The position numbers were made by a program, and so were the translations under genes. Under the pieces are notes generated by a model. It did not search any database. It was not told the origin of the DNA and saw nothing but the letters and a program-made list of their open reading frames with translations. Of a stretch of DNA of 64,000 bases, positions 6,167 to 58,685 are shown piece by piece; the first letter of the stretch is position 1; every line of letters starts with the position of its first letter. Origin of the DNA: Clytia hemisphaerica (Eukaryota > Cnidaria > Hydrozoa > Leptothecata > Clytiidae); the NCBI GenBank assembly GCA_902728285.1, contig CACVBU010000274.1, positions 586,942 to 650,941 on the forward strand. Direction: 5' to 3'.

Positions 6167-9100
6167 TCACGGTATCGCGGTGGCTTGTTGTTTTACTTCC
6201 ACCGTCATATTTGGAATACTACTTCGGTGAGGAACGAACCTTGGTCGGTCGTCTAAAGAAAGATATACTTTTCATATTAACTGAAATTTTAAGGGGAATA
6301 TTGTATATTTCAACTAAAATCTGACAGACTTGGCTCGCGCTAAGATTGCGAGACGTGAAACCGATACCTTATATACACAACAGTAAAGCTGGGTGTCCAC
6401 TGGAAAAAATCATATGTCTGGTATTTGCGACGAACTTATTCTTTTTCAGTGGACACCCAGCTTAAGAATCTCAAAAATTTTAACGAAATTTTATAAGGTC
6501 GTTTTCCAAAGTCAACAAATTGCATGATCTTGGATGATCGTTAAAATTAAGTTGTAGCCTATACAGAGCTTTATCATACTCTATACCGCTTAAGCTATAT
6601 ACAGTAGAGTCTCTATGACGCAAATTTGTTGAGTTAGGAAATCTCGAGTTATGTAGTTTGTAGGACCAGAAAATTCGTTCGAGTTGAGGAGACATTCGAG
6701 TTGTGGAAGTTCGAATTACAGAGACTCCACTGTAGTAATAACCAAAACGATTTTAAATTCCATTTCCAGTTATGGGTTGAATAGAAATGGAAACTACCTT
6801 AAGGGAACTTATTTTGGCGGGAATTTAGTTTGGCGGGAACTAATTTTGACGAATTTGGCGCATTTAGACAATATTCGCCAAAATTAAGACCCGCCAAAAT
6901 TAAATATTTTGCCCACTCGCCAAAATAAGTTCTCGCTCAAATTAAAAATTTTCAGGATTTTTGCCGCTCGTCAAAATTAGTTCCCGCCAAGGTATCAGAT
7001 TCGAAACAGATAGACGATTGTTGCTTTTAACCAAAACAAAACAAACGAGCAAACTGTTGTGTTCGGCTTACCGAAATCTTTCTCTGAAGATAACGTCACA
7101 TTCTTAGAAGAAGCAGAAGAGGGCCGTTCTGATGGTGGTCGGTAGATTTTCATCTCAGGTCGTGGCTGTAATAAAAAAGTTAATTCTACTTGTTATCTTC
7201 ATATTTTTCAAGTGTAGAAGAGTAGTAGGTACAATAAAAGCACAGTAGCATTCACTTTGCAGTTTCCAGGCTAATTTACATCCATTCCATTTTATATACA
7301 TACATGGGGGGGTGGGGGGCGAACTTTTTAAAGAGGTAATCCGAAGAAGAATTTTCAATGGAAGTTGTTTTTTATTTTTCCAAGTGGCAAAATTATTTTA
7401 AACTTCCAAGGGGTAAAAGACTATTTTTATGACCTAAAAGGTTATAGTTCGTCCACCATCACTTTAGTTCGTCCACCATCAATTTTAAGGTATTAAGGAG
7501 AATTTTTTTGCACATTTTGCCATTTTCCAGGGGTTATATTCACATTTTCAAGAATTTTTTGGTTACCTTTCGATTATTCTTATTCGGGCTTGCTTTTTCA
7601 GAGGAGTTTCCATCTTCTGGCGTATTGTCTTTAGATGCAGATTGAGATGCAGATTGAGATGCGGTTGTGGAGGACGAGGTTGGTGTATCGTCACTGGTGT
7701 CACGTTCCTTGTTCCGTTTGTCTTTCTTTGCTGACTTCTCTGGTGATTCTGTAAAGAGACATCTCTCTTTGTTGTATTATAGTATTTAAAAAATACATTT
7801 CATAGGTTTCTTTCTGAAGGATTATATGGATAAAACATGGCACGGGATAAAATTGGAATTATCGTAAATTCGATTTCCTAATGGATATACCGGGTGCGCC
7901 ACAAAACAGTTTCTCACTTTGAAACTAATTTTCTCGAAATCTAAAAATTTTAAAAGAACCATTCCTATTTCGTTGGAAAGAAGAAAGATAAACTTAAATT
8001 TTGATGGGTCATTTATCAAATTTGATTCATTATAGATCAAAAGTTACGGCCCGGGGGGGGGGGTACTTAGGCAAATAGAGGGTACGGTATGTGCCGCCCT
8101 TAAGGGTAACCTTTTTGACTTCCAAAGGTCCCCGGGTCGGAAAATCAGAAATCAAATTTTCAGTCCCACTAGGGTTGTAAATGGAGAATTCAACTTTTTT
8201 ACCCCTGAAAGATCGAATTGGTCAATTTGTCCCGCTAAGGTCGTGAAATTCACAAAGTTTTCCTTTGTTTTCTCCTTTTTAGTCCCGGTAAGGGTCCCAA
8301 GTTCGAAAGTCGGGCGACACCCCCCCCGCCTCGCAACCCTAGTACCCCCCCCCCGGGAGTTATGCTCAATTGAATAAAAAGTTACTTTCAGAAAGTGATC
8401 GAATACGTTAAAAATCGACCTATCAAATTTTTATTTTAAATTTGGCAATCGCAATAGCCTTTACAATAGCCTTTACATGTTTAAGAGCGTTTTTCAGTAA
8501 CTAAATACATAAATTTTGAAACTGAAGGGTCGAAAGGGTTTAAAATCTTCATCAAAATCAATTTAATTTACTTTTACCGAAATTTTCCTCAGATTTTTGG
8601 TGCTAGACTGGATAAAGTCTATGTAAGGCTCGATCTACCTCGAAACCCATATTTGATGTATTTTTATGAATTTCAACTAAAACTTTTGGGCTTTTTCGAC
8701 GAATTTTCTTCCTTTCATTGAAATTAAATTTTCCTTTATTATAACAAGGTCATTTAGACAGCTAATCATCATTTTTAATGACTGAAACGAAAATACTGGT
8801 GTCTCATGTAATTATGGTCTGTTTAATTTGATAGGACGATTTTTAACGTTTATGAGCATTTTCCGAAAGTAGCTTTTTTATTCAATTGCCAATAACTTTT
8901 GATCTAATGAATCAAATTTGGTAAATGTCCCATCAAAATTTAAGTTTATCTTTCTTCTTTCAAATGAAAGAGGAATGGTTCTTTTAAAATTTTCAGATTT
9001 CGAGAAAATGAGTTTCAAAAAGAGAAACTTTTTTGTGGCGCCTGGTAGATACTAGTACTTCTCAGCAATGAGTAACAATGCTTTGCAAGTTCTTTTATGT

Positions 9101-12100
9101 TATCCAAGTAAACAGGAAGACGTCTTAATGATGAAACCGAGACGTTTTTATGTGCCGAGATTATCCCAGGTATTTTATATTTTGCTGAATTTTGCGAAAT
9201 TCCAAGGCGGAAAATTTTTGATTAATCATACAAATACTGTATACCTTATCGGCCAAAACTTAGTCGGCCTTAATTTTAGTCGGCCTTAATTTTTAGTCGG
9301 CCTTAATTTTTAGTCGGCCCAAATTTTTTAGTCGGCCCTAATTTTAGTTACCAAGCCAAAATTTAGTCACTTAGGACCGACTAAGTTTTGGCCGATAAGG
9401 TAGTTGAAGGAGAATCATTTTTACCTCCTCTGGACCCTTTTTCGGGAGGTGTCAAGCGTCTGTTTTCTTTTTTCGAAGAATCTTTAGACGAATCTTTATT
9501 TGACGATGAAGAAGAAGAACTTTTGTCTTTTGTCGTGTCTTTGCTTTGATCTTTTGACGAGGACGGATATTTCTCGTTTTTGGCTGATGATGAGGAGCGT
9601 TGCTCATTTTGTCGGTTGTCATTGTTGTTACGACCTAGTATGAGGATGAATAAACGATGAAAAAAGCCATAATACTCATGAGGTGGCAAGAGATATGTCA
9701 TATATATAAATGAGAAAAAGCTCACTCGTATATCATAAAATCATGTCACTAAGAATAAACCTCACTAGCCAAATTGAGTTGTTTTTACCCAGGACAAAAA
9801 GCATCATTCGACCCAGGCCCCCGGCCTTTCCTCCCACCAAGCAGCTAAATATAGTCCTGGACAGAATCAATATACACCATGTCCCCTGCATAAGAATGAA
9901 AACGACAACTTCTTTGTTACAAAAACATCATCAACTACAGTTGAGTCTACTCAACTCGAAAACCCTATAATTCGAATATCTCTTAACTAGAACAAGTTTT
10001 ATGGTCTTTTCAGTTAATAATGCCTTATAAACCTTACTCTATAACTCGTACCAATCTGTGTTCCCCGTGTGTGTTCGAGCTACGGAGACTGTTCACCTTT
10101 TTTTCTGTCGCTGGCTCGTTCACGTGGTCCACGTTTACCGCCCCCGCCACCACCACCGCCGCCGCCTTCGCCCAGGCGTTCTTTCTTCTCTTTCTCGCGA
10201 TGATCGTCTTTATCTTTACTGTTGTTGCTTGCTGAGGACGACCTGTCTTGTTGTTTTGTATTGTTGTCTTTCTTGTCTTTTCGTTTGTCCGACTTACTGT
10301 TGATTTCCTCTTTCTCTTTGTCCTGAAAATAGACACATGATGGGTAGACTATGCTATAGTATAAGACAAATTCGAATAATAAAGAATTTCCGGGCGGAAA
10401 TTTTGTCCGCACGCACAAGAATAGTCGGAGGGGCTCAATATAAACACAGACTCTATTTTTCCGCCACGCAGCATATTACGTTTTATAATATACAACTATG
10501 TTATATCATAATATCATCATAATATATTACACGGACGATAGCATCGTCTACATGGTGGGTAATTTTCTCACTCTCAGTCATTCTAGGGTCCGATTTCACT
10601 TCCAAAGATTGAATTGGATATTATATAACCCAGACCGTCACCTAAGACAACTAGCGACGCGAGAAGTAATTTCATTACTTAGATAAAATAAATAACAACA
10701 ATATTCTTGCCAGGATGATCCAAATAAATATCATTCCAATCCACAGCAAGCTAGCAAGCAGAGAAAGGTCAGAAAACATTTTGTAGGTAGGTAATATCAA
10801 CCGGTTCAAATAAATAAACACGCGGGAAAACGAATCATAGGAGTTCTCTTGCTGTAACATAAAGATTTAGTACGAAAACGGAGCGATCTGAGTAAACTGG
10901 AGAATTTGGTGTCATGCACGAACCACTAAAAAACACTGAATTTTCAAAGATGTTTCTAGCCATATAGGGACCAATTTAGTAGACCACGCGCACATTTTAC
11001 CAAACGAGATCTCATTTTACCTCCAATCTAAAGTCTTATACGATGGGGAAGTTAAACGAGTTAACCTCCCGACCATCGGTTCTTCATCGGAACATAATTT
11101 TTAGCGAACAATTGGAAGAATTAAATTAGGATTGAAAGGGAGAGAGAATGGTAACTTGGTACTTGAAAAAATATTTTTATCCAACCAGTTCACAAAGATT
11201 TACAAAATCCGAATAAGAGCCACTGGTGTTATGGTTTGACGAAAATAACTTTGAGATTCGGTGTAGTGTCCTATTTTGATATTTTGAGTGAAATTTTAAG
11301 TGGCGATTGTAAATACGTGAGAAAAGTGTTTTAATATTGTTAATATAATCATACCTTGTATTTGTCTTTTCGTTCCTCGTTTTTCTTCGAATCACGATTG
11401 GATGATTTGTCGGCAGATTTTCTAAAAAATATTCTCCATAGTTAAAGAAATTCGAATTTGTTTTTCAAGAATTACTTCAGGCGTACGAACTTTCACGAGG
11501 TCGAAAATTCACGACATTTACTTTCGCGAATTTGACGAAATAATCTTTTTCGCGAATAATAAACTTTCGCGAATCAAGACAAAAAATTCAAGAATATTTC
11601 AAGAAAGTTTCCGCTCGCGAAAGTTTGTACGCCTGAAGTAATTCTTGAAAAACAAATTCAAATTTTTTTAACTATGGAGAATATTTTTTCTCGGTCGACG
11701 CAACAACCTCGCAAGCTCGGTCGTTACTTGAATTCGAGCAATATTTCTCAGTACTGCCCTCACTAACCAGTCATTATTGTATTAGTCGAACTTCTAAATA
11801 TTCAAACATTTCTATAATTCAAACTTGTTTCCAGACCCCGTCAAGGAGAAGACCTCTTAAAATACTTCATATTATTCGAATCTCTCTGTAATTCGAATAA
11901 ACAAGTTGTTGTTGTTAACGTATTCACGTATTCACAACTTCAAATCTGTTAAAACGAAATACAACATACCTTTCACTCCGTTGTTCTTCGTGTTTGTTTT
12001 GCTTCTTGTCTCGTTGTTCCCTTCTCTAGAAGAATGAAACAAAACAACTTTGTATGAAATAAACAACTTTGTATGAAATAAACAACTGAAATGAATACAT

Positions 12101-15100
12101 CTTTTCGACCGTAGTCACGCAGTCAGGCGCGTGCCACTTTATTATTTAATCATCCCTCTAAATCCTTTTTTTACACCTTTTTCTATCATTGTCTATAGGG
12201 GCGAAAAAAGAACTGGAACAAAAAAAATGCCCGCGCGGCAATTGGTGACTACGGTCTGAAAGGTGTGTTGAAGCGGATTAATGGAAAGGATTTGTATTCA
12301 AGTAAGACTCTTTGATATTGCTGGTTAAAATAATTATATAAAAAAAATATGTCTAGTTGTATTTCAGCAAATCGGCTTTTTTCAACTTTTGAATTAACAA
12401 TTTAAAGAGGTCACCTACCGGGTGTGCCGCAAATAAGTTACCTTTTTTGATCTGATATTGTAGGCAGTAGAAAAGAGATTTTTCAAAGATTGTTTCGGAT
12501 TAATTCAGAAGAAAGCCTAACTTAAAATTTGGTGTATTACTTTTTAATTTCACTTCATTGGTTCAAAAGTTATGTTCAAGAATAAAAAGTATTAATTTTT
12601 AAAAATGTCAAAAAAGGCAAAAACGAGAGTATTAAATTGGCTGTAATGAATAGAGACACAAAGCCATTTTATGAATCAGGAAATGTATTTCCATTATGTA
12701 AAAAGCACTTATTTATTTAGCATTTTTGCTCAAAGCTTTCACCTTATCTACCTTTCTCGACGATGATGCACATACAGAAAAACTTTCGGAAACTCTTGGA
12801 AAGATGTTGAAAATTTTGTGGGGGTTGAAGCATTTTGCATCTTGTCTATGCCCAAGGGAACACAGAAGTAAAAAAACAAAAACAAAAACAAAAAAATTGA
12901 GATAAAGAGTGTTACAAGGAGCAAGACTTGGTAAAAGTCTCTCATAAAACGATACCCTTGTTTCTAGCCTTTTTTGACATTTTTAAAAATTGACATTTTA
13001 GGTCATAAAAGGAACATAACTTTTGAACCAATGGAGTAAAATTAAAAAGTAATACACCAAATTTTAAGTTAGGCTTTCCTCTGAATGATTCCGAAACAAT
13101 CTTTGAAAAATCTTTCTGCTACTGCCTGCAATATAAATTCAAAGAGGGTAACTTATTTGTGGCACACCCGGTATATTTCCTATTGCTCCTCCTCAGTTGT
13201 TCCCCACCCTGGATTCAGAAATTTTTCCTCCCCTTAAACCTCCCTTTGGTCTCAAAACCTATATCCCCCTGACCCTAGGAAGACGACATCTAAGATGGCT
13301 TAAGTTCTCTACAATAAGCGAATACAGTGAGTTTGACTGACAATTCCTGCATTTAATAACACACAGGCGTAAATTTATCGTTCTTTTAAGCCATTAGTCG
13401 TTGATAAACAAAGAGGAATCAAATCGTACGGGTGGACAAACTATCCGGGTCGGGGCTGTGGACGTCGAATTTTGTCGTTCTTTTTGTCTATTTTTAGCAA
13501 ATGCAGGAATCGTAACGCTGAAGCCTTCATAGAAAAATATACCTTTTGTTCCCTTTCTTTTCGTTCCTTCTCTTTCTGAAAAAAAACAACAAACGAAAAC
13601 ATTAAAAAAAAAAACTTTTTCAAGTTGATTGGAATATCGCTATTTACTACACCCATTATAGCTCCCCTGTAAATTTCCTTAACTCGAATAAATTTGTGTT
13701 CCCCATGTGTGTTCGAATTATGGATTTTAATTATTCCTAATGATTGTACTTCTCGCTTTTCTTGATAATATAGCAAGGTTCTGCAAGGTTTTTTCAAAAC
13801 ATATCATTATACTGGACGTTACCTGGGCAATGGCAGCTAACCGAACATCTCTCTTCTCTTTCAAATAATCGATCAATGGCGTGGTAAACTTCACCTCTAC
13901 GAAAAGCAAAACAATACTTTAAAGAAAATACACAAAATATCCATGTATCCCAGATATTACTAAGGCTGCTGATGAATGACAGGGTCGCCAACTCGGTGTG
14001 TGAGTAGCTTAGATTGGGTAATCTGACATAGGTTGGTTAGTTAAAATAGATGCCGAGAGTAGATGTAGTTCTCCCCCTAGCACTCCTAGCAATCTCCCAG
14101 GTCAGCGCAATTAGAAAAGGTGATTAACTCCCCCACTCCCGGCTCCACCAACAGCAACCAGATGAATATACTTACTTATATTAAATTTAAGGAGAGAACA
14201 AAAGGAAAGGGGGCACAATCTGTATTCCAGTGGTAATTTAGTTTCCACGTAGGTAAGCATCTTATTGGGCTTTCAAACATTGATCGATGATGCGAGAGAG
14301 AAATAAAATTCCAATAGGAGGATATCATTCTAAACATCCTGTTTGAAGCAAAAAAAGCTTACTGTTTTTATCGATAGCTTTGGCTGCTTCAATTTCTTCG
14401 ATGTAGATCTCAGCACTCGGTAGCTTCTCTTCTTCTTTGTCCAACGATTCCAAGAATTGAATGAATTCTGGATCTGAGGAATATAAAAAGAATTCATGAT
14501 ATACACCACTGGAGAGTCTTCTGGGAACTTTTAAAATTTTCCACCCAATATGTCACTTAAACAATAGAAAAAGTGATGCATTGCTGGGTGGAACAAAAAG
14601 AGAAAAGTTGCATAATTTCCTGAAGTCATATTGCAGTGGTGCATATCATGAATTGTCGAGTGTTGTTGATTGATTTGGGAGTAAAGTGTGGAACAAATGA
14701 TAGAATTAGATAAACAACAAATATTTGTTAGAAAGAATACACCCCGTTTTATCAAGGATAAAATAAAGGGGCCAAATCCCACCCAATGGGAATGTGGATA
14801 TTCTTCTCACTTGGACAGTTTTAAGCCGATTTCTCCAATGAGGAGTAGGTTTTACCGGTTTTTGACGAGTGTACTGTAATATGTGTACTGTAAATAGCAC
14901 TACACAAATGACGAAGGATTCTTTTGATGTAAATAAGTAAAGAAAGCATTTTCACCCTTTTCCAGTGTTCCTGTTTTGTGGTCTTTCTTTTGTCTCTCTT
15001 TGGGTACAAGTTGACACGGTGCAAACTCAACCACCGCACTAAATTCACGACCTGTGGAAAATCAGGAGTATCAGTACATTGTACAAGATAAAACTTAATT

Positions 15101-16457: not shown

Positions 16458-17570
16458 CTTTCAAACGTGAAATGTAATCTCATATATCTTTTTTTTTGGT
16501 CAATTGCTAAAATCAATAAAATAATCATATCGTTTGAGAATTATCGTAAATAAAAATGTTTTAATATGCTAATCATAAAAGAGAGAGAAAAGTACAGTAG
16601 CTGTCCAAGCAAGCAGAAGACAGAAGGGTGTTTGACTTCGTTCTCTTGGGTTGTTTACGTTAATCTTAGTTAGTGGCGTCAAATATATGAAACTTTGAAG
16701 GTATCGATTAACTAAAACTCAATTCACTCGAAAACTTCATGAGATTCAAAGGCAAGGATAATTTTTTTGTCCATTCTACACCCTATTAGAAGCGTCAAAT
16801 TAAGAATTTGCCCAGATCTAAGGGTTCTCCTACGAAAACCTGTTTTAAAAAGGCCTTTTCTGAGTTTCGGACACTGGTCTATAGTTAGGAGAATTATACA
16901 ATTACACCTGATAGTTGAAAAAGAATTAACAAGTGATACTTTTATGGATCTACCTGGTTATCAAGACTAGTCAATGAATATTAGAACAATGAAACACATA
17001 AGACATAACTGGTCAAAATAAAAAATAATAAGGTTTGTTCGGGTAAAATGGTAATTTATTCATTTATAAACTAAAAGAATATTGATATAATGCTTGTAAA
17101 TAGTGATTCTTTCATAGCTAGATGAAAGACAAATTTCATCATTTTCACATTCGATGAACTGACAAAGGTGTTTTGTGATTTAAAGACTGACGGAGGTAAC
17201 AATAAAGAAATGTTTTAGTTTTAAAGCATTTACAATTATTTTCACAACGCAGAACAATTATCATTACATTGTTAGTAGTTTGATAAAGGTATAAGCAGGT
17301 ATCATTCATTTCAAAATAGCAGTTTTTTTTTTAATTTTGCATATGATACTTAAAAATACATTTCCCCTTGATAAAAGTTAGACTAGTCCAGTCAGGATTA
17401 ATTCTTAAGTCTCTTACAACATTGCACATTTTGATAATGAATTTCACCTATTTCTAAGCCTTTAAAAATGTGAAATTTTATTTCCAATTATTTCCCAAGA
17501 CAGCAGTCAATCATCTTTACTAAATTTTTATCCACAGGAGGCTGGTTGGCTGTAGCCTTTAGCTACTGTA
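16458..17570. other. Region upstream of UPF3; no gene recognised
   Basis: It is AT-rich with many T- and A-runs. It presumably includes the UPF3 5'UTR and promoter. The short open frames here show no recognisable domain. No clear core promoter element can be assigned. Confidence 0.3.
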
Positions 17571-23333: not shown

Positions 23334-23336
23334 GCA

Positions 23337-23706
23337 CATCCTGGCAATAAATGAACAGGGTATTTTTCACTTGCGACCATTTGCAAATGAACAGGGTTGA
23401 AAACGAAAGTGACGTAATAGCGCCGAATACCCAGTTTAATTGAACCGGGTTGGAAATATTTTGCTTCATTTCAAAGAACTGCATAGATGAAATTTTTTTT
23501 CCATGGGTCAATTTTGTCTTCGAAGATTGAAGAAACTTTTAACGAAAAAATAAAGTTTTCTTCCTTTTTCAGTTTGAAGTTCATTTTTATTCATTTTCAC
23601 GCTTTTAGTCTGAGACGTCCTATCTCATTTACACTGGGTGACAAATACCCCATGCAAATGCTCACCCCGTTCATTTGCCAGGATGTGCCCAGGATGTGCC
23701 TGACTG
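23337..23706. mobile_element. MITE copy B with CAGTCAGG ends (uninterrupted)
   Basis: CAGTCAGGCACATCCTGGCA at the left mirrors TGCCAGGATGTGCCTGACTG at the right. The body is near-identical to copy A at 513-1618 minus its nested insert, including CCCAGTTTAATTGAACCGGG across the empty site. No clear target duplication is seen. It abuts the dead LINE on the left and the CAGTCT element on the right. Confidence 0.75.
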
Positions 23707-28114: not shown

Positions 28115-28123
28115 GTTTTCGCC

Positions 28124-29185
28124 ACTGCTTTAGTCTACCATGTTTGTTTATTTGCAATTTCCGTAACATTGCCTACCCGCATCCAATGTACGGTACAACA
28201 CTTGAGGTACCCGCAAAAAAATTCCCAGCCCGCCCTCTGGGCCGACAAAGTTTTGGCCGATAAGGTATGTTGTTAAAAGTTCGAGTAAAGTTCGAGTATG
28301 TTTGAAAATTAAAAATCTGCCAATTTCTCGTTCAACCATGGCGTATACCCGGTAAGGCTCGTAAAATCCACAGAATCGTCCTTGTTTTTCGAGTATAGAA
28401 CTTTTCGAACTAATCGAACTTTTCTTCAATCGGACTTTTCGAACTAAACCGAACTTCTCGAACTCTTCACAAATCTCATGAAACTTTCCAATAGTTCAAG
28501 TAGAGAAATTACTCGAACTTTACTTGAGTAAATACCATTCTCGAACTGTTTGAGTAATTGGGTTTGGAATAGACGTTAATTGCGTAGAAAAAATGATGGT
28601 GACGTCTAGCAAAGGCATACACTACTCGTTTTTTATAAGAACAAATTATAATTATATAAAAAAATTGCTTAGATGGCCGGAATCTTAAGAATAAGTTAAG
28701 AATTTCTTATATGGGTTTGAGGGAAAGAAAAAAAGAATGTCCAGGTCTAAATTAGGACGTTTTGTTAAAAGTGTGTTTACATTATGGTGGGACCACTTAC
28801 TTAGGCAAAATCGGGTACGGGAACGTGCCCTTTTTTAGGCTTTGAAAATATCTGAAAGTGTTCCAAATTTATTAATTTTCGAGATGTGTTCCTGGTAGGG
28901 TCGACTTTTGGTTATACTATTGCTTCTATTGGTTATATTTTTCGACAATTTTCAGGGTGGAGATTTTTACTAATTATTTTTTGTTTGATATTTCAAAATA
29001 TGTATATTTCACGCACATTATCCCTGGTAAAATATTTAAAATATTTAAGATTTAGATATTTACAAAAAGAAAAGGATTAAAAATTAAAAATATATACGGA
29101 TTTTTCATTCTCTATTAAAAAATAAAACAAGTTGTTTTTAAATACAAAAATGATAGATTAATTTTGTTAATATAAAAGATAATTT
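28124..29185. other. Intergenic stretch between the MULE-like MITE and the EFHC2 3' end
   Basis: It holds a right-end-only fragment of the 9244 family (about 28243-28267), a half copy of the AATAAGAACAA family (28630-28690), and a decayed poly-G-family left end near 28795-28835 (ACTTAGGCAAAATCGGGTAC). No gene is recognised. Confidence 0.4.
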
Positions 29186-32100: not shown

Positions 32101-35100
32101 TGCCGGAAAATCTTCAGTTTGATGTTTGATTAAAAAGTTTGATTACTTACATTGCAGTTCGATTAAGTTCGATCAGTGTTTTTGTAGCTCAAATGATTCC
32201 AGTTATTGCTAGCGCAACCAGCTCAATCAAACACATCGTACATCAATCAAACTAACCGGAATTTCTTGGTTCGATGACTGTTGGATTTGGTTCGGTAATC
32301 ACACAGTTCGATTGACATCGCTTGGCCGATGGGATGATAGATATTGGCCTGCTCTTTAAGCTTTAGCGTTGGTGTCTACTAATAAGCCATCAGAGTGTAA
32401 CAAGAATGGGCAACCAAGTTAATAAATCAAACTAATTGAACTTCATCAATCTTGATACCTCTTTTGCTAATCAGAATTTTCATTTTGAATCATTAAAAAC
32501 TCCAGTGGTACTGTTGTTTTTTATGAGATTCCCATTTCCGCACTAAGATTCTTTTCTGGAATCTCTCCCCTATATATATATTTTACGGGATAACCAGCAA
32601 GAGATTGGGGAAGGTTTGTTTTAATGGGATGCAAGGATTCTTTGTTGTGATTTTCTAGAAGGGCCATTAATCAATTACGTATAATATTGATTATTTTACT
32701 GTTTTTAGCACTTACTACTTTCACTGGTGTGTAAACATTTATTTTATGATTTTGAAAGATTTACGGTCAAGCTAGAAATAATTAATTTTAAAGGTCTATA
32801 ATAGCATCAGAAAATAATTGCATCACTTTTAGTGAGGTTTAGTCAATTAGTATGTGGTGGGAAAATTGGAGTGACAGGTGGTAAATAAATCCCCATATTC
32901 TATCTTGACCGAAGTCTGTATCCTTAAGTTAATGTATTTTTATATGGATTTTTGTGTTGAAATTTTAATCTCAAGGAGTATTATTTCTTTAAAGCTTAAA
33001 GTTGGCTAGATTTTATCCTGCCATTCTCTAGTTCAGAAGCTTGAGCTCAACTACTCAACTGCTTTTTGCCTTTAATGGCCTCTTCCAGAAAATGCCTATA
33101 CATGGGGGGGTGGTGGAGAATATAGTGTCCAGGGGCAGGGGGGTTAGTGAAAAATCTACAAAATTTGCCTTGTCCGGTGGGTGGGTAAACTTGCTCTGTT
33201 TGGGGTAATTTTGCTCTGTTTTAGGGTAGTTTTGATTGTCCATGGAGTCAACTGATGCTTTTCAGAGGGTTAGACCTGCTGTACGGGTGGTTAGACCTGC
33301 TGTCTGTGGGTCAAAAGTCTCAGGGTAAATTTCAAAAAAATGTTATATCCTCCAACCCCCCCCCCTACAATATTCTGCAATATTCAAATTTTTTCTGGAA
33401 AAGCCCAATAATTTTGATGGTGGTGCGCCATCCCCGGGGGGGGCAGCTGGGCAAAAGGACCGACGGGTATGTGCGGGCACTAAGGGTGTCTTTTTCAAGG
33501 CACCTCAAATGCACTGTAAGGGTCGGAAAAACTAGAGATGCACTGTAAGGGTAGAAATTTCAGAAAATTCTTGAAAAATCTAGATATTTTGACCAAAAAT
33601 GCTAGAATTTTGACCATTTTTTGCACGAAATAGATCGAAAATTTGGGGGAAAATGCACTCTAAGGGTATGATTTTCACTGATTTTTGCTGCACTGTAAGG
33701 GTCCAATTTTAAAAGCCAATTTTTGGCCCGCACATACCGTCAGTCCGCAAACCCAGTGCCCCCCCCGGGGCGCCATCATTCATATCAGAAAGCGAAGATA
33801 GTATACAGCAGATTTTTCTGACTACTGTAGCTATTTTCTCAATTTTAGAAAATTCTAAGAAAGAAGTTGATATAAACTTTACGCAAGTGAAAGAATTAAG
33901 TCTTATCACAAGTGACTTGTTATCAAAGCACAAAATGAAGTTTCTGGCATCAAAGAATGGAAAGTTCTTTTTTTTCTCTTCATTTTCAAAAAATTTTAAA
34001 ATTATTTTTCTCAAGTACATATATTGCAGTTCTCTGATTTATTCTGAACCCAATTAAAAGATCTTTTTTTACGCTTATAAAAAGGATTTTTTTAGAAGTC
34101 GCATGTTTTAGGAATTTTTTTGTTTTTAATGTATTGAAAACAGGGTATCTACGACCTTTGTGTACAATAAAATGTGTATATTTTGTGTAACGCTTCATTC
34201 AAAATCCATAATGCTGCAGGAGTCACGTTTCACGCGTCTTCGTCGTTGATGTTCAAATATTATGCGAAATTTTCGACTTTAAGTCGTCTTGTTTAAGCTT
34301 GGAACAATATAATTTCTCCCCATTAGGATTTCCAAAGGAATCTTTATCCCCAATGAGGAAAAAAGTACCATCGGGGCTGTGAGACAGGGGTGTTCTTATG
34401 AATAAGCTTGTTTAATTTTTGGAGCTTAAAGTTTCATGCCGTCCGTATGAACGACAATAATGAGGCAAAAAAAAAATAATCCAAAGATAATCAATCCACT
34501 AACTTGAAAGTTTCGAAAGACATGCTGCCTGTTTTCTTGCGGTCCGCACTATCAAGCATTAATCTAACTTCACTAGCATTGTCGGTCAACAATCGACGTA
34601 TTTTGTTGGACACCAATTGAGGATTAGCATGTGGGAATTCATCAGCATGACTTTCCATATAGTTGATTGCATATTCGTCAGCATCAATGAGGATGAATGG
34701 ATGTTTACAAAATTGGACATTGCCACCAATGAAAAGATCCTAGGAATAAAGAAATATGGGTATGGGTACTTGAAAGCAAGTAAAGTAAATAAAACAAGAT
34801 TTACTTGGACGTCTTTCTGCACTTAGCTAATAGTCCCTAATACACTAACTACACGTTAAAAAAAATAAGAACAAACTATATAAGAACATAAGGCTTCGAT
34901 GGCCAAAATCTTAAGAACAAGTTAAGAACATTTTAAGACTCCGCGGACTCTAAAACAACACCCGATTTCTAAAAAAAATGAACAATTTTAAGAACAAAAA
35001 GGTGAAAATAAGAGCATGTTAAGAACATTTTTAGGCTTAAAACTCAAAACGTTAAACATCTGAAGGCTTAAAAAATTTTGGATGTTCTTATAAAAAAACG

Positions 35101-50100: not shown

Positions 50101-53100
50101 TTCGAATCAATCAAAATGCGATTTCCCGATAACAATCTACCACCACTGTTCACCATACTCGAACAACTCTACAAACAGACAACTCTCACTTTCCAGGAAT
50201 CAAATACCTTTCAAACTACATCAGGAGTCCGCCAAGGAGGCCCAGAGAGCCCGTTCCTCTTTAATCTCTACATCGATTTTGTCATGCGTGTCTTTATGAG
50301 TGAAGCCAATGCAGAAAGTATCAACTTCTATAAACATTCATACCGTTTGAATCCAAGAAGTATCTCTAGAGCAAATAGAATATCTATGAGAGAGAACAAT
50401 TTACGCAATTGGGGGACATCAACATTACCGTGGTGCGGATACGCGGACGATCTCATCCTTTTTCTCATCAGTCAACTAGATTTGCAAAGCTCTATCAACT
50501 TTCTAGATCAAACGTTTACTCGATTTGGACTATCAATAAACGCTTTGAAAACCGAATCTATGATACTTAACTGTACCGAACAGGATTACCCAAAATCCAT
50601 CATCAAATTGAGGAACATTGATATCAAAAACGTCAAAACGTTCAAATATCTCGGAGCTTTCATTCACTTTGAGGAACCGAATACCGGTGACATCGAGATT
50701 AATTACCGTATTCAACAGGCGACTAACAAATTCGCAGAAATGACCAACCTTCTTCAAAATTTCAATGTCCATTTGAAAACTCGTATCATCTTCTTAAATA
50801 GTTATGTACGTAGTCGCTTAATCTACTCATGCCAAAATTGGAATTTATATTCAAGCCAACTTGAGCGACTAAACGTCACATATCGTCGATTCCTAAGTCG
50901 AATGATTAGAGGTGGTTTTCGTTTCGTAAATGAGTCTAACAACGATTTCCGTTATCAGGTAACCAACAAAAGACTCCATGAAATATGTGGTACATCAGAT
51001 TTGTCAAATTTCATTGGAAAACAGCAGCTGGAATATGCTAAACATGTTATTCGTATGACCCACGAGCGTTCCATTAAACTGTTGATGTTCAACGATGATA
51101 AGTATACGAAACGTGGAAGACCATTTAAAACTTTGCTAGATCAAGTAACTGATCAAAACTCCCTTACCACAGATGGTCTTTGCAACAGTGCTATGTTGAG
51201 AAAATGATTTTCTAATATATTTTTTGTAGTTGTTCTTGCTGATATGATGATCGGTGGGAAGTATCTTGCAATCCAGATCAGCTGATCTGGATTTCTCGAT
51301 GCTTCCCACCCCTATAGTACTAGTCATAGTATTTTGGTAAAATTTATAATGTCGCCTGACTGTCTTGAATGACAGTCAGCCTGTCCCAAGCCAGGATAAA
51401 GACAGAGGGACCCAGAGAGGACTAATTACCCTTTCATTATAACATCGTCTCTCTAAGAGGAAAAAGAATTCGGCCATTCTTTGTTGTTTGTAGATCTGAC
51501 AGGAGAAAACATTTTATTTTCATACTATATATATTTGCCTAGTACATCAGGATGTGCGAGGATGTCCCCTGCCTGGTGTCTAGTGCAGTCGGCTCCAAAG
51601 GAGTCTAAGGTGTTTACACCTTCGTTGATTCATTTTTTGTTTTCTTCTCCTGTCAGTCTACCTGGAGTTTGTTGTCATCTTGTACAGGCCGCTGGGGTAA
51701 TGTCGCCTGACTGTCTTGAATGACAGTCAGCCTGTCCCAAGCCAGATAAAGACAGAGGGACCCAGAGAGGACTAATTACCCTTTCATTATAACATCGTCT
51801 CTCTAAGAGGAAAAAGAATTCGGCCATTCTTTGTTGTTTGTAGATCTGACAGGAGAAAACATTTTATTTTCATACTATATATATTTGCCTAGTACATCAG
51901 GATGTGCGAGGATGTCCCCTGCCTGGTGTCTAGTGCAGTCGGCTCCAAAGGAGTCTAAGGTGTTTACACCTTCGTTGATTCATTTTTTGTTTTCTTCTCC
52001 TGTCAGTCTACCTGGAGTTTGTTGTCATCTTGTACAGGCCGCTGGGGTAATGTCGCCTGACTGTCTTGAATGACAGTCAGCCTGTCCCAAGCCAGGATAA
52101 AGACAGAGGGACCCAGAGAGGACTAATTACCCTTTCATTATAACATCGTCTCTCTAAGAGGAAAAAGAATTCGGCCATTCTTTGTTGTTTGTAGATCTGA
52201 CAGGAGAAAACATTTTATTTTCATACTATATATATAATCGACAAGGTCAAAGGTATCAGTTCATGGATATATCGAACTTTCAAAACAAGGGACCCTACTG
52301 TAATGCTGACCCTATGGAAGACATTGGCAATCCCTCACACTGATTACTGTTCACAGCTATGGTCACCATCCAAGAGACACCAAATGCAACGACTAGAACA
52401 GCTTCAAAAATCATTCCTAAATGGAATATTCTCTTTACAAAAACTGAACTATTGGGAAAAACTTAAAACTCTAAAACTATACAGTCTGGAAAGACGTAGA
52501 GAAAGATATCAAATCATCTATACTTGGTATATCTTAGAGAAATATTCTCCAAATTTCAACCACTCTGAGAACAAAGGGGGTATCACCTGCTACGAAAACC
52601 AGAGGCTCGGACGAAAATGCCACCTTAAAGAAGTAAATTCTAAACACAAAAACATTTGGAGAGGCTCACTATCTGAAGAAGGACCTAAGCTTTTCAATTC
52701 TCTCCCATTCTACATTCGTAATATCACAAACTGCACAAAAATTAAATTCAAAAGACAACTTGACCTTTTTCTTTCCACACTGCCGGACGAACCACTGCTC
52801 CCGAATTATTATCCCTACAGGAGAGCGGATTCAAACAGTGTGAGAGAAATGGTGAATCATCGGATTTCCAAATTGGATGATTGAGAGACTCAAAGAACCC
52901 ATCAAAAGTATCAAAAGTAAGTAACGCACTTGTAACATACAACTCAAAACATACAACTCATAACAAAAGTTCCTGAAAATATTATATGTAATGGAAATGT
53001 AATAATCAAAATATTTTATTTAGAAGACTTAAAAAAACGACACATCATCAACCCCAAAAATTGACAACAAAATGACACTTAAATTATGTAAATAATGATG

Positions 53101-55664
53101 TTATCTCAAAGTATGAGGTTTTGTACAATAAAATATTTATCATGCGTAATAGGATGCCGACGCTGCAAGGTGAGATCGATATTCGAATATTTCTTTATTC
53201 TTTGTATATAACATACGTAACATGCGTATAACTTGAAAAGAAAATTTTTTTGCATGTGTGATATAGATGTAATATAATACAAGTATTACAGGTCTGTGTT
53301 ATACACGGCATAAAACGGGAAATCAAGTGGTAAGCACGTGGGTAGATTTTTAGCTTTAAAATAGTACTAGATCAATAAAATACATTTGGAATTATATTAA
53401 CACTGACCTGTGACCCGTGACCTGCGTTTAACACAACCGACTTTCTTGAAGCCGTTCTGAAATTAACCAATCTGGTTATGTATCGGAATTCCTATGGGAG
53501 TTCTTTTCCGAGATTTGTAAAATAGCTAAGTTGGCAAAAAAACTTTTCCCGGGGGTTTGAGGATAAAACAGAACAAACAGAATAAACAGAACTGCTATCA
53601 TTTGTTTTTTTGTTTAACCATAACATTTAAATTTGCGCTAGAAAATACTTAAATGAATAAGTTAATAATATTCAATACTATTTGTATCTCTCAGAAAATA
53701 AACACTTACAGAACGACATATATAGTTTAGCATTTGGAATACTCCCGTGTTTGGACCATTCTATTGTGGGCGCAAAATAGGGCGGAAACTAAGTAGCTCC
53801 CTCAGTGCAAGATTGCCGTCTCATCTTTATTCGTTGGCGAGAGAACGCAAGCTTATCATTTTTTTCTTGCGCACTCAAGGGGAAAAAGAAAGTGATTGAT
53901 ATTCTTTGAAGGAAAAACGTCAGAAACAAACCCAACAGACGTATTTTGTTGTTGACAATCGATCCTGTGAAGATGAAAAAATTTCTGCTATGCGTTTTTT
54001 CGGAATGCTGAAAAACTCTAATTTCGACCTTCTTTAAGGTAAAGAGGTTGCAAGATTTGGGTTAGCAAGGCAAAAATTGCTAAAAAGCTGGTAAAAAATC
54101 GTAATCCTCAAAAATCGAAGTTCCCGCCTCACTGAAAAACAGTTCCGCTTGCGGAACAGCAGCAATATTGCAGGGTTGTAAGCCCTGGTGGGGGTTAAGC
54201 CCTAGGATATTTGATTTTTTCAACCCTAAAAGTTGCTCATAAGTTTTAAATTCTATTACGTTGTTAGATGTCGGTCAATAGGGCCAGGCGATCTCAATCG
54301 AACGGAATCGTCGATCGAACCAGTCGAACCAAATCGAACGCAATCGACCGATTGAAATTCGATTGTCGAACGCAATCGAATCTCAATCGAATATTACCGC
54401 AATTTTCAGATTCGATTGATGTTCGATTGCGTTCGATTGATGTTCGATTGCGTTCAATCGTCGATTCATTGACCCCCAGATTGTTCATCGCATAATTTCT
54501 ATGGGAAATCGAAAGTAATTTCATTTGGCTTGTGATGTTTGAGAGTTTGGATGTTGGGAAGCTACAAGAATAAAGCCAAACGATCTCAATCGAACGGAAT
54601 CAACGATCGAAGCAGTCGAACAACAATCGAACCAATCGAATATTACCCAGAATTTTGACATTCGATTGAGATTCGATTGCGTTCGACAATCGAATTTCAA
54701 TCGGTTGATTGCGTTCGATTTCTAGCGCCATGAAATGGGACGTTAGAATGGCGGTGGTTCACTTTGACTTAAGCCAATATCTTACTTTACATTGGCTCCT
54801 TATTTATGCCAATAAATACGCCAAAAGTAATTACTGCCTCACTCCGAATATATAGACCTTTTTTCAAAGAGGCCACCCTGTTGAATAATTATGTAGTCCA
54901 GCAGAAAAAAAATGATAAAACCATGCATAATTATATCAATATGCATGATACAGTAATTATCATAGCTGTCAACTTCGCCTCACAAAAATGCGGGAGAGCT
55001 CCAAGTCGGAAAAATTTTCCCCGATAATCCGATTTTTCAAAATCGGAAAATCGGGAAATCGGGGAAATTTTCTCGTAAAATCTGATTTTATTGGAAATTT
55101 TTTTCAGGAAATTGGGGAATTTTTCGTTCTGATCTTTCAAAATCAAGAAATTTCGCCGTTTGGTTTTTCCAAAATCAGAAAATTTTTGGAAATGCGGGAG
55201 ATGCGGGAGAAAATCCCAAAAATGCGGGAGATTTGGCAGAATTTTCTTCACGCGGGAGAAATCGTTGACATGCGGGAGTCTCCCGCTCAATGCGGGAGAG
55301 TTGACAGCTATGAATTATGCATGGCTCTATCATTGTTTTTATGGCTGGACTATAATTATTCAACAGGACGTCCTCTTTGAAAAAAGGTCTATTCGGTGTA
55401 TTATGCACTATTTCCAGCCAGCAGAACAGTCTAACTATATAGAATTAGGCCACACTTGTCCCATTCCAATCCTTGGGATGTTTCATTGTCACTGCACAAA
55501 TATTTCACTCATGTAAAATTTGTGAAAAATAGAATTAGTCCAAAACGCTATCAAAAAAGTATAAACTGTAAACCAAGCAAAACAAAAATAATGTAAACTT
55601 AACAAAAAGATAAGTTTCTTACCCTTCTATCAAAATTGAGTCCAGGTAAAAGTGGTAAAGCCAT
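29186..55664 (-). CDS. EFHC2: EFHC2, DM10-domain axonemal protein, 11 exons
   Basis: Exons (minus strand): 55623-55664, 39946-40033, 39110-39483, 38457-38811, 37845-38088, 37178-37343, 35721-35934, 34504-34739, 30558-30639, 29703-29985, 29186-29313. Junctions are GT-AG and phases match. The total is about 737 codons, close to vertebrate EFHC2 (about 750). The N-terminus MALPLLPG matches EFHC2. Three DM10 domains follow, with signatures YFYLEDDTIQVIERKVENSG, LHYFLADDTVEIRE and ISYFLSDDTILVFEPPQRNSG. The linker PPYNGFGSEEDS is diagnostic. The C-terminal part carries degenerate EF-hand-like segments (GDGHLDYQHF). By family knowledge, EFHC proteins are microtubule inner proteins of ciliary doublets. 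Exon 4 has one extra base in a four-base homopolymer (38509-38512) that stops the frame at 38497. Removing one base restores the conserved NSGRDAVPLFLRRAKLPK. Intron 1 is 15.6 kb and full of retrotransposons. Confidence 0.92.
31164..31187. repeat. (TG)n microsatellite
   Basis: About 12 TG units lie in the EFHC2 intron between exons 9 and 8. Confidence 0.9.
31794..32320. repeat. Degenerate TTTGATTG/TTCGATTG repeat tract
   Basis: Irregular recurrence of GTTTGATT, TTCGATTA and AATCGAAC words over about 500 bases, related to the family at 1-235 and 54285-54722. It is in an EFHC2 intron and is non-coding. Confidence 0.5.
33433..33769. mobile_element. Poly-G/C-ended element, copy 2
   Basis: The left end is CCCCGGGGGGGGCAGCTGGG and the right end CCCAGTGCCCCCCCCGGG. 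A perfect 8-base direct repeat, GCGCCATC, flanks it (33425-33432 and 33770-33777). The interior repeats TGCACTGTAAGGGT three times and CTAAGGGT twice. CCGACGGGTATGTGCGGGCA near the left end is mirrored in type by GCCCGCACATACCGTC near the right end. No reading frame is present. Confidence 0.7.
34852..35102. mobile_element. TA-flanked 251-base MITE, AATAAGAACAA family
   Basis: CACGTTAAAAAAAATAAGAA at the left pairs with TTCTTATAAAAAAACGTG at the right, with TA at 34850-34851 and 35103-35104. Relatives lie at 16090-16355 and 28630-28690. It is in the EFHC2 intron between exons 8 and 7. Confidence 0.7.
35230..35397. mobile_element. 168-base TAA-flanked MITE (Harbinger-type target)
   Basis: The 26-base ends are GGGGCCATCCACATAGTACG... 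and, inverted, GGAGTCATCCATATAGTACG..., flanked by TAA (35227-35229 and 35398-35400). G-runs lie just inside each end. The three-base TWA-type target fits PIF/Harbinger-like miniature elements. Confidence 0.7.
36538..36890. mobile_element. 353-base TTA-flanked Harbinger-type MITE
   Basis: AGGCCGGTCTCCACTTTCGC at the left mirrors GCGAAAGTGGAGTCCGACCT at the right, with TTA flanks (36535-36537 and 36891-36893). It lies between EFHC2 exons 7 and 6. Confidence 0.75.
37021..37150. repeat. 130-base imperfect palindrome near EFHC2 exon 6
   Basis: TGCACCATTGCAA pairs with TTGCAATGGTGCA, and the interior continues pairing (CCAATAGCTGATTGG against CCAATCAGCTGTTGG, and GTGACGTA against TACGTCAC). The outer arm ends 26 bases from the exon 6 splice donor (37177 on the minus strand). 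Confidence 0.75.
37624..37645. repeat. (GACA)n microsatellite
   Basis: About five GACA units lie in the EFHC2 intron between exons 6 and 5. Confidence 0.85.
40034..42061. other. Proximal part of EFHC2 intron 1
   Basis: No gene is seen. The segment 41560-41720 is similar to 215-360 (CAGGTTGGCTTGG... against CAAGGTTGGCTTGGC, then a shared CATTAAAAAGC and GTTTTGC(A/G)GCACATTTTT). A fragment of the GGCGGGAA family lies near 41120-41175. Confidence 0.4.
42072..43238. mobile_element. 1.17 kb MULE-like element with 10-base target duplication
   Basis: The ends are GGGCAGGTCTAATACCTACT and, inverted, GGGCAGGTCTAAAACGCC followed by TAATACCTACTACTTAA. A perfect direct repeat, CTTTCATAAC, flanks it (42062-42071 and 43239-43248). 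The subterminal zones are arrays of TACTTAATAC-like words. No transposase is present. The 9-10 base duplication suggests a Mutator-like non-autonomous element. Confidence 0.8.
43503..43601. mobile_element. 99-base AATCGAAC-family element with CAGACGGTGTC ends
   Basis: CAGACGGTGTCTATCGAACA at the left is mirrored by TGTTCGATTGACACTGTCTG at the right. This is the most compact bounded member of the family seen at 1-235 and 54285-54722. Confidence 0.65.
44932..46383 (+). pseudogene. CR1-like LINE ORF1: PHD-like finger plus CCCH fingers, one in-frame stop
   Basis: One frame runs from ATG at 44932 to TAA at 46381-46383, broken only by TAA at 45172-45174. The same protein continues directly after the stop (DEAVKKLCLKIKNYFEDICQ). 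A Cys-rich PHD-like module follows: ICTEPY, INCIVCGQEVHKQCY, CYICTSC. A Ser/Thr/Pro-rich linker comes next, then a cluster of CCCH-like fingers with spacing CIFYKKGKCKHG...CKYKH, CPKLM...CNAGTKCPHFH and CSSS...CFNDNCNFVH (about 45885-46105). ORF1 proteins of CR1-group LINEs bind RNA, and PHD-like ORF1s are known in that group. The 3' end overlaps the start of the ORF2 endonuclease frame. Confidence 0.75.
48679..51207 (+). CDS. RTE-like endonuclease C-terminus plus reverse transcriptase, open frame
   Basis: Open for about 842 codons from just after the stop at 48676-48678; the first ATG is at 48961. The N-terminal part is the end of an AP-endonuclease: QRFHTFFNETNQSVLNTWF, TWHSPDGKTQKVYDFILS and the catalytic FDSDHRLVTA motif (about 48925). 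Reverse transcriptase motifs follow: ALWKNKGSKQDPSKYRGIS, NGFRKDRGTTDGIF, LFVDLSAAFDHIPR, SGVRQGGPESPFLFNLYID and the catalytic CGYADDLILFL (about 50433-50465). TFKYLGAFIH and a C-terminal region with AKHVIRMTHERS end the protein. YADD instead of FADD, and GVRQGGP instead of GVPQGS, set it apart from the CR1-like LINEs here. It is intact after the truncation point, so it is a young copy, but with no complete endonuclease it is not autonomous. The clade assignment (RTE or RTEX) is inferred. Confidence 0.85.
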   Translation, partial: KSTERANVLVDNLEVNDNGQRFHTFFNETNQSVLNTWFTHKKCRRVTWHSPDGKTQKVYDFILSCSWIRQYVKNCRVYNSFDFDSDHRLVTAIIMKTPTSKAARFINRKKIKQPLKHNLSALKDQTIATNFKTMAINRLNSLVLDVDNNTLNNSLLKAINDAATETLPKKVINVSRQPWHNDDKLNELFNLRDKLVTENANINSIKAVRKKIRYRAKHLKNVYLKQEADQINQLAINREIEKLFQRAKNQNSTLKPVPSSCDPNKLLEHFKSHFNPPQRPDETMPNELRNDHDNLPRFIQELRQISANTDIEDSPPTIEEIQKQIASLKNNKANNDVDPELLKLCDDPVLSQIIHHITTNLWMNNDIPEAWSNSRLKALWKNKGSKQDPSKYRGISIGSTICKLVTNIVLNRLQPWYEAQLSDDQNGFRKDRGTTDGIFELKRVQQITNRKKQPLFLLFVDLSAAFDHIPRHWLFESIKMRFPDNNLPPLFTILEQLYKQTTLTFQESNTFQTTSGVRQGGPESPFLFNLYIDFVMRVFMSEANAESINFYKHSYRLNPRSISRANRISMRENNLRNWGTSTLPWCGYADDLILFLISQLDLQSSINFLDQTFTRFGLSINALKTESMILNCTEQDYPKSIIKLRNIDIKNVKTFKYLGAFIHFEEPNTGDIEINYRIQQATNKFAEMTNLLQNFNVHLKTRIIFLNSYVRSRLIYSCQNWNLYSSQLERLNVTYRRFLSRMIRGGFRFVNESNNDFRYQVTNKRLHEICGTSDLSNFIGKQQLEYAKHVIRMTHERSIKLLMFNDDKYTKRGRPFKTLLDQVTDQNSLTTDGLCNSAMLRK
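51253..51310 (+). other. Strong RNA hairpin after the RTE-like ORF
   Basis: GGTGGGAAGTATC pairs with GATGCTTCCCACC, enclosing the perfect palindrome TCCAGATCAGCTGATCTGGA (51272-51291). It lies 45 bases past the stop codon. It could be a recognition structure for target-primed reverse transcription, although that is inference. Confidence 0.6.
51351..52231 (+). repeat. About 350-base tandem repeat, 2.5 copies
   Basis: Copies lie at 51351-51701, 51702-52051 and 52052-about 52231 (partial). They are almost identical; the visible difference is CCAGGATAAAG against CCAGATAAAG. Each unit starts with the hairpin CTGACTGTC/GACAGTCAG. Full units also contain GACAGGAGAAAAC paired with GTTTTCTTCTCCTGTC. 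The same 80-codon open frame appears in copies 1 and 2 only because the DNA is duplicated, so I do not call it coding. The array forms the 3' region of the RTE-like LINE. Confidence 0.85.
54285..54722. repeat. Two AATCGAAC-family repeats
   Basis: The segments 54285-54480 and about 54575-54722 both begin with a CAGGCGATCTCAATCGAACG-type end and continue with CGATCGAACCAGTCGAAC and CGATTGAAATTCGATTG. These match 126-215 closely. No coding potential is seen. Confidence 0.65.
54855..55389. mobile_element. TA-flanked palindromic MITE, interrupted copy
   Basis: GACCTTTTTTCAAAGAGGCC at the left is mirrored by GAAAAAAGGTC at the right, with TA on both sides. The arms also share CCTGTTGAATAATTATGTAGTCC. 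Removing the insert 54961-55312 and one AATTAT leaves about 177 bases, the size of the intact relative at 58740-58912. Confidence 0.75.
54961..55312. mobile_element. 352-base element with CATAGCTGTCAACT ends and ATGCGGGAG repeats
   Basis: The 14-base inverted ends are CATAGCTGTCAACT. The 6-base duplication AATTAT flanks it (54955-54960 and 55313-55318), and the empty site is visible at about 58846-58856. The interior contains about seven copies of TGCGGGAG plus iterated AAATCGG and GGAAAT words. No reading frame of known type is present. Confidence 0.8.
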
Positions 55665-56209
55665 AACGAAGCCCAAAAGTGGGTGATCCCCTGTCCCCAA
55701 AAAAGTAAAAAAGTGTGTCTGCTTGTAAACTGCTCCTTTGGTTTTTATAGTTGTTTTGATTTCCAGATTACGCTTCGATTCAGGGTGATTGTAAAAATAT
55801 TTATAAAGATAATGTCTAGCTATTCCTGTTGAATTGACAATAAAAAATGAAATAAAACTCTAGAATCATTTCAAAAATGCATTTAATTCATATAGTATTG
55901 TACAAAAAAATTTATTTTGGGAATAAATACTGATCTTTATTTGCTTTAAACCCCCTGAAAAATAAAATTGTTTACAGATCATAGCAACAGCGAGCCATTT
56001 AATTAAAAATGGTAGCTGCATAATGGCCGACTGTTTACATTCGATTTTAGAATTTTTTAGATTTAGATTTTTTTCACTCGTGATTCTGTCTTTCTGTGTC
56101 ATGCCATCATCTTGCCTTGGCCTGCTGCCAACAATATCACTTTAACCATACATCTGTAATAAGAATGGGCAACCACTTGCTTATTTATTTTGCTACTATT
56201 TATTAGGTA
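55665..56209. other. Region upstream of EFHC2 exon 1
   Basis: It presumably holds the EFHC2 promoter and 5'UTR. It is AT-rich. I cannot point to a definite promoter motif or another gene. Confidence 0.3.
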
Positions 56210-56216
56210 CCGTAAC

Positions 56217-58685
56217 CCCGGGGGGGGGGGGGCACTGACCTTGACGACCGACGGGGACGTGCCGCTGGAGTTTCAAAAGTCGATCCTGTCAGAAATGAAA
56301 TTTGATGAAAAATAGACCCTGTCAGAAGAAAAATTTGATGAAAAACCTACCCTGTCAGATTCTACTGTGAAAAACCTTACCCTGTCAGATTCTACCCTGA
56401 AAAACCTACCCTGTTAGATTCTATGTTAAAAACCTACTCTTTATACACGTTTTTCGCGTTTTTCGTAAAGTATAACGTGATATCATCAACATTTCCAGGC
56501 TAAAAAACTACAGCATTGCATAAACATTAAACCTCAATACCTGGAAAACCGACCAAAAGAATCGACGACGAGAGTTATGCTTGAATTGATTTTTTCAGGC
56601 GAAAATCTGAATCGAAGTTGATTGGATACTACTCGAATTGAGACATTTTAAAAATAAATCCTCTCTAAATCGAAATCTATTGGAATTAGTAGGGTATTTT
56701 CTTATTCCTAATGAACTAAGGAAATGTGGAAAATAGTCCATTTGAATATTTATTGTTCTAAGTTAGATATTTTAACGAAAATGTTTGACCTACCTTTTGG
56801 GGTTAGTTGACCTACAATTTGGGAGCCTTCATAACCCGACATGAAAAGTCTGTCAAATTATATAAAACGTTTTTGTTGTACTTTCATAAGAGATGATTAA
56901 TGTTGGTATTTTAAGCTTTTACGACGTGTCCCAGACCAGCTGGGACCCCAGCCCAATCAGAAAATTTGCCTAAGTTTTGAACAATAAATTTCTATCCCCA
57001 TTGGGAATTTGTAGAAATTTTTTGACCCGATGTAGGAAAAGTTCCACCGGGGCTGTGAGGCAGAGGTGTTGTTACATTATTCACATATTTTAACACAGAA
57101 TCTTCAACCTAAAAAATAAAAACAACTTTCTTGTCTCTTCTTTTCGTCCTTTCTTTTACTTTTCATCATTTGTAGCACGATAAAATTAATATCTTTATTA
57201 TTTTTTTGTCAGAGTATATTTCTAAAGTATAAATTTCACTTAGAGAACAAAACTTTCCGATGAATACTGAAATTTTGCTCTCAGCAACCCAATCTTTTCA
57301 CCTACATTCTGGGGGTTAAAAAGCGAAAAAATCCAATTTTCAGAATACCAAAAGCTCTTTAGAATATTATTTTGGCATAAAATATTTCTAAAATTCAATC
57401 GAAAAAATATCAACATTTTACTATGGAGGAGGAGGAGGTGAACCTTCCCCTGGCACAGGGAATAGGCCCTAACTTAACTTAGGGTTCACAGCGCTAAAAG
57501 ATTGAAGATTATTTCCCAGCACTGTTATGAAATTTGGTCAGCATGAAAGGAAGTTCTTTATTTTCACTAAAAAGTAATATTCTATTTGCCAGACTTAATT
57601 TTTCTTTACTGTTTCCCCACCTTTTTACCATAAAAGATTTAGACCAAAACCCTTGGGGGATAGGCATTTTTAAAGGTTGGGGGGTGTCAAGAAGGGGGGT
57701 CAGACCCCTTTCCACACTATGAAGAAGCCATTCCAAACCTACATTCTGGGGGTTATAACGAAAATGGGAGACTTCAAAGACCAAAAAATTAGCCTATCTA
57801 TCAAAAGTAATGAAACTAACCCCTGGGAAAGGATTTTGGGAGTTCAAATTTTGTTTAAAACATTCAATATTTTTTTAAATGCATATCTACATCTCTCAGG
57901 TCTGATTCAAATTTCACCTACATTCTCGGGGTCAGGTGCTGTAATGTTTTGATTATTTTTATAATCGGCCAACTTGTTTCATTGTTTTCAACTAGTCGGA
58001 ACTAACTATCATCTGTTTTCAAGTGGCAAGTGGAATGTTATAGCAGGAATCGGAATCTTACGTGATCCTACGGTAAGGGTCTCAAAATCAGAACTGATGA
58101 AGTCTAGGTTTGAAAGGACTATTTTGCAAGTATAAGCTTTAAAACGACGCTTTTACAAAGAGGACGAGAGCAAGCTTGCTTTGTTTGATTACCTATGTTG
58201 TGTGGGAGATGCGCAAGACTCAGAAGGTTTCGATTTCGAACTCGAAAAGAATACAAGTTTCAAAAAAAATTTCCGGAAACAATGTTGTTAGTACCACTAT
58301 TCAGCTGAACATTTATTCTAAATAGTTCAATAGAGATATCGTTGAAATTAGCCTCGATCCCTTTAAGAGGGCGCAATGGCGGGCGTGTAGTGCGAGACAA
58401 CAGCAGCAAAGCGCCTGTGTTGGCCGTGCGATAAGTATTTGCAATAAAAACTGTTTGCCCCTCGCAGGGGTCTGCTCACCGCCACGTCAAAACAATTTGC
58501 GAAAGAACTCTACATGTAAAAACGGCAAAAACAGACCCTGTCAGACACACATCATGAAATTGCGCCCCTGTCAGATCAGGATTTTGCAATTTTAGATACC
58601 CTATCAGTAATTCTGCAACACTGAAAAAGGTACCCTGACCAGCGGCACGTCCCCGTACCTATTTTTGCCTAAGTGCCCCCCCGGG
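56217..58685. mobile_element. Poly-G/C-ended element, copy 3 (2.5 kb)
   Basis: The left end is CCCGGGGGGGGGGGGG then CACTGACC; the right end is TTTGCCTAAGTGCCCCCCCGGG. A 7-base direct repeat, CCGTAAC, flanks it (56210-56216 and 58686-58692). CGGGGACGTGCCGCTGG near the left end is mirrored by CAGCGGCACGTCCCCG near the right end. ACCCTGTCAGATTCTA-type units recur at 56325-56430 and, more loosely, at 58530-58610. A related segment to 30945-31070 (GCTGGGACCCCAGCCCAA) lies inside at about 56940-57065. No transposase is recognised. Confidence 0.65.

Follow-up and report, generated by a model that had tools for sequence, protein, structure and literature searches.

Results and discussion

Poly-G-tipped loci in the window

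The 64,000-nt stretch of Clytia hemisphaerica DNA analysed here (the window) contains three loci that are bounded by CCC plus a long G-run and by the mirror image of that tip, which raises the question of whether they are genuine transposable elements and, if so, of what kind and moved by what. Within the window, CCC followed by at least seven G occurs only at 8050, 33433 and 56217, and at least seven C followed by GGG only at 8345–8357, 33759–33769 and 58676–58685. The three loci put forward in the initial annotation, denoted E1, E2 and E3, were thus recovered with exact coordinates and as the only such sites. E1 (8050–8357, plus strand) is a non-coding element of 308 bp with tips of G11 and C10, being an old member of a family in which many copies are young. 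E2 (33433–33769, plus strand) spans 337 bp and contains four units CACTSTAAGGGT. E3 (56217–58685, minus strand) spans 2,469 bp, has no long frames and carries units CTGACAGGGT. Each element has two different ends, A and B (see below); A lies on the left in E1 and E2 and on the right in E3, so that A to B runs along the minus strand in the latter.

Flanking repeats of 7–8 bases had been claimed for all three loci. This holds for E2, where GCGCCATC is found at 33425–33432 and 33770–33777 (8/8), and for E3, where CCGTAAC (7 bp) is present at 56210–56216 and 58686–58692; in E1, AGTTACGG at 8042–8049 and AGTTATGC at 8358–8365 agree at 6/8 positions. Next to their A ends, E1 (8042–8049) and E3 (58686–58693) carry eight identical bases, which read AGTTACGG toward the element. 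A target shared by E1 and E3 was considered and rejected; as no such consensus is seen among 22 exact duplications of the E1 family, the identity is taken as chance.

Two suspected decayed members also follow the shared plan. D1 (5458–5778, plus strand) has an A-like end on the left, recognised by eye and with a profile built from all arms, a B end on the right, and units TAAGGGT; it is 74% alike over 232 nt to a D1-family copy in locus L032 that retains a G11 tip. D2 (28798–28960, plus strand, right limit approximate) is, judged by eye, what is left of a short E3-type element, with a decayed A end and some of the interior preserved; its partner end was looked for and not found.

G/C runs of at least seven number 14 in the window, six of them being element ends and eight lying elsewhere, so an element cannot be diagnosed from a run by itself. 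At 59753–59804, a G15 run is followed 25 bases on by a reversed CTGTAAGGGT-like unit, a site at which neither end type was called. The surroundings include an inverted repeat around E1 (arms 7896–8032 and 8905–9041, 137 nt, 93% complementary), a tandem array at 51347–52235 (350-bp unit, 2.5 copies, 99% matches) beside LINE-like coding frames, window frames that by eye resemble LINE reverse transcriptases, and a DM10-domain stretch (E 1.8e-31); the last two give the DNA the look of an animal-like nuclear genome.

Genome copies and target-site duplications

The assembly from which the window derives (417,433,876 bases, 951 contigs) was searched for further copies. For E1, a first look gave 2,244 candidates, 40 of which were scored, and 27 full copies besides the window E1 (7 + 20), the best-scoring of these candidates, were read with their flanks. 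The segmental duplicates L028 and L030, a duplicate record (L003) of the window E1 and a partial copy (L027:959–1216) were left out of the duplication count, which kept 26 copies including the window E1; 25 of them have readable ends, and one (L026) lacks clean ends. The initial annotation had called for an alignment of 50 or more copies with tabulated flanks; the 26 E1 copies were aligned, and the tabulated duplications are exact over 8 bp in 22/25 copies, match at 7/8 in two, and at 6/8 in the window E1. When the left flank of one copy was mispaired with the right flank of another, 8/8 was reached in 1/600 and 7/8 in 9/600 pairings. The placement of element edges was free to vary by at most 4 C and 4 G, likewise in the mispaired control, and one of the 22 exact duplications counts for little because it lies within a G-run. 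Leaving the window E1 aside, the 25 copies, all top-scoring matches, deviate by 0.3–3.1% from the family consensus, compared to 14.6% for the window E1. As the copies read are the best-scoring ones, both the youth of the family and the share of intact duplications are biased upward. One E1 copy is nested within an E4-type element (L010), and another abuts the tip of a different E4-type element (L021).

Flanking duplications are not confined to this family. By eye, a further E2 copy is flanked by GTCATATC and an E4 copy by GTAGGCAG (8/8 each), while the match is only 7/8 in L023, a copy of the D1 family, and in L015, an E3-type copy of 200 bp. In the genome, 226 places (110 forward and 116 reverse) carry an E3-type B end tipped with G4, whereas the reversed pattern gave none. 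Among the first 100 matches listed, 11 of these places were fetched, and six of them have an A end within 1 kb; 8–9 bp flanking words are common to both sides in three of the six two-ended copies, with no flanking repeat in the other three. These three copies and the two 7/8 cases weigh against the transposon reading. Three of the five places with no A end up to 1 kb away (L040, L046, L047) are E3 bodies that continue beyond the sequence retrieved.

The possibility that these loci are independent simple repeats or chance look-alikes draws on the eight window runs that are not element ends and on the weakness of profiles trained in the window alone (see below). Against the 22/25 exact duplications set beside 1/600 in the control, the full-length genome copies and the 226 places versus none for the reversed pattern, it can hardly be entertained, and for E1 it is refuted by the duplication count relative to the mispaired control. 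The initial suggestion of a genuine transposable element group with such ends is borne out, with duplicated flanks and numerous copies in the genome.

E3, the longest of the three, has no open frame above 94 aa. At 56580–57948 it carries part of another repeat, ~1.28 kb long and with short inverted ends; this part matches L031 and L032 and by eye is absent from the E3 copies L040 and L047. The two genome copies of this repeat (L031:803–2084 and L032:682–1950) are 94.5% alike. Genome matches to E3's own parts are mostly 90–99% alike; a set of matches near 90% belongs to the foreign repeat. E3 as a shortened autonomous element was rejected, since more than half its length is a piece of foreign repeat and a long frame is lacking; the absence of any frame above 94 aa, together with the separate repeat at 56580–57948 that is missing from L040 and L047, implies that E3 is non-autonomous as well.

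Two different ends and one-way units

The A end reads, from the tip inward, G-run, YACTTAGGCAAA, GGTACGG and ATGTGCCGC, and the B end G-run, CACTRGGTTTG or similar, GACGG and ATGTGC. A is on the left in D1, as in E1 and E2, and the two-ended E4, D1-type and E3-type copies examined have one A and one B end each. Of 27 interior units (A/C)AGGGT in ten element stretches, 26 are oriented from A towards B, compared to 32 versus 29 in the two directions elsewhere in the window; a sign test on unit direction gives 4e-7, a figure to be read with the reservation that members of a single family do not count as independent. That A and B ends differ and that the units point one way goes beyond the initial annotation, which had noted shared subterminal words.

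The strength of those words depends on the material. Profiles built from the arms of two window elements and tested on the third recovered the A end of the latter with E values of 0.0097 (E1), 3.5 (E2) and 1.2 (E3) and did not find the B end of E1, E2 or E3; D2 was matched at E 0.14, 0.0091 and 3.1, and the D1 B end at 0.4, 3 and 14. Once arms from several genome copies were added, 7/9 window arms were matched, with the E2, E3 and D2 arms among those used for training. The D1 B end, which was not used, was matched at E 1.8e-4, and the E1 B end and D1 A end were not among the matches listed. The end words are modest evidence from the window alone; it is with the genome copies that the observation becomes firm. 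Viral contigs with the pattern GGGGGYACTTAGGCAAA were examined as a further candidate and dismissed: the two matches are apparently the same stretch in two contigs, and by eye no CCC precedes the G-run.

G-runs at A ends range from 6 to 17, with one copy longer. An extreme case is the E1 copy at L007:1470–1511, whose left tip reads G26, T, G13. At least four interior types were seen, namely E1; E2 with E4; D1; and E3 together with its shorter relatives. The separation between them is incomplete, as the D1 copy in L032 is 75–77% alike to E1 copies along some 140 nt starting at the A end, and judging from this similarity the families may be splits of one lineage.

Candidate transposases

The initial annotation had suggested hAT-like chemistry and a search for a full-length copy with a transposase. 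No such copy emerged: in about 298 kb of fetched genome and the window, with the frames partly searched, an autonomous partner with the same ends was not met, and a Pfam scan of ten other frames in the fetched loci assigned no family.

For hAT-superfamily MITEs, the suggestion is carried by duplication length alone, which fits. Tips of hAT elements follow YARNG, and hAT duplications favour T at position 2 and A at position 7. The tips found here are CCCGG/CCCGGG, and the 22 exact E1 duplications have T2 in 6/22, A7 in 6/22 and both in 2/22, making a hAT origin unlikely even though subterminal repeats, which count for it, matter for the hAT-derived Kat1 according to PMC4763223. Another known superfamily with duplications of about 8 bp, i.e. 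KDZ/Zisupton, Merlin or MULE, is a possibility that we lean against but take more seriously; 8-bp duplications are given for Zisupton and Dileera in PMC12730594.

P-superfamily (THAP9-type) transposases as the movers, with the AGGGT units serving as THAP-domain sites, were followed further. TAAGGG presumably resembles the THAP1 site, which is counted in favour of this reading; the THAP1 site string itself had no occurrence in the literature searched. The domain PF21787 gave 247 candidates in the genome, 150 of which were scored, with every listed match above the cut-off and frames of up to 901 aa, compared to 0/14 control genomes. Five of the proteins were scanned, and the RNase H domain was found in 5/5, the GTP-binding insertion domain in 4/5 and THAP in 3/5 at E ≤ 0.001 (two reaching the cut-off). 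The duplication length of the E1 copies fits as well, 8-bp duplications being ascribed to P elements in PMC10983969 and PMC1562414.

Seven P loci (L033–L039, 6–8.5 kb each) were read, stretches outside which some P ends may fall, and in 0/7 does the transposase gene lie between G-run A and B ends. The A and B profiles found one end in these loci, an A-like end in L034 (E 0.0003), 235 bp before a 900-aa frame. As an end of the autonomous partner it was rejected, because copy boundaries put it outside the P unit: 19/61 match rows start at q296–309 (L034:2195–2208) and none earlier except the self-match, in a search that skips very common words; L036 aligns to L034 only from L034:2208; and the unit itself seems to start CATAGTCACTAG. 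On this comparison the P route appears weakened, not closed, since most P loci lie beyond the seven read, and we regard it as improbable, slightly more so than hAT. In their own right, the matches to P/THAP9-type transposase domains, which number at least 150 and in many cases lie in long open frames, amount to a large P repertoire. One stretch (G000:C870:32974–47261) holds six P-type RNase H domains on the same strand, 2.75–2.79 kb apart, each with two TAA in the matched part, and looks like a tandem array of a P element.

Conclusions

In summary, the loci are very probably MITE-like, non-autonomous cut-and-paste DNA transposons with unusual poly-G, asymmetric ends. The duplication has a fixed length (exact 8 bp in most E1 copies, with flanking words in half of the two-ended E3-type copies), the ends are inverted terminal repeats in that CCCGn/CnGGG tips are joined to related, non-identical A and B ends, and lack of coding capacity (at most 94 aa in E3, E1 being about 300 bp) coincides with high copy number (2,244 candidates for E1, 226 places for the E3 type). 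As far as checked, the elements are non-coding. What the data show is that insertion was accompanied by an 8-bp duplication in most of the E1 copies read, that copies are numerous and some of them young, and that the ends are polar and conserved.

Because no autonomous copy was found, both cut-and-paste movement and a shared transposase are what we infer. A DDE-type transposase, or close relatives, would be supplied in trans and would recognise the A and B sequences immediately internal to the G-run, probably together with the one-way (A/C)AGGGT units, and the element would be cut and pasted with an 8-bp stagger. As its length varies, the G-run is a tip that is probably not read exactly; variable lengths would be tolerated and may drift by slippage.

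MITEs are a known kind of element, of which the tips, the polarity and the one-way units would make a variant. The 8-bp duplication agrees with the rule for hAT elements, and the terminal bases and duplication pattern fall outside the corresponding hAT rules. The overall structure resembles that of hAT MITEs such as mar of Drosophila (PMC3517528). P-derived MITEs of Anopheles (PMC1562414) are likewise short and non-coding, with conserved end stretches, 8-bp duplications and middles not similar to the parent; unlike them, the present elements have CCC plus G-run tips, polar ends and one-way units, and no P parent with such ends was found at seven P loci. The likeness to Zisupton/KDZ concerns the 8-bp duplication length (PMC12730594). 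Non-equivalent left and right ends, as proposed here, are a property of Tn7 and Mu. In the open-licence literature searched no description of such ends was found. A distinct lineage, possibly a superfamily, defined by homopolymeric G tips, two non-equivalent ends, one-way recognition units and a transposase that reads element polarity, is a tentative proposal that we consider rather doubtful.

To our knowledge, poly-G tips joined to asymmetric ends are unusual for animal MITEs. As the group is large and has young copies in this genome, its transposase should be findable and end recognition testable. Such tips could drop out of short-read assemblies, so that the group may have been missed elsewhere.
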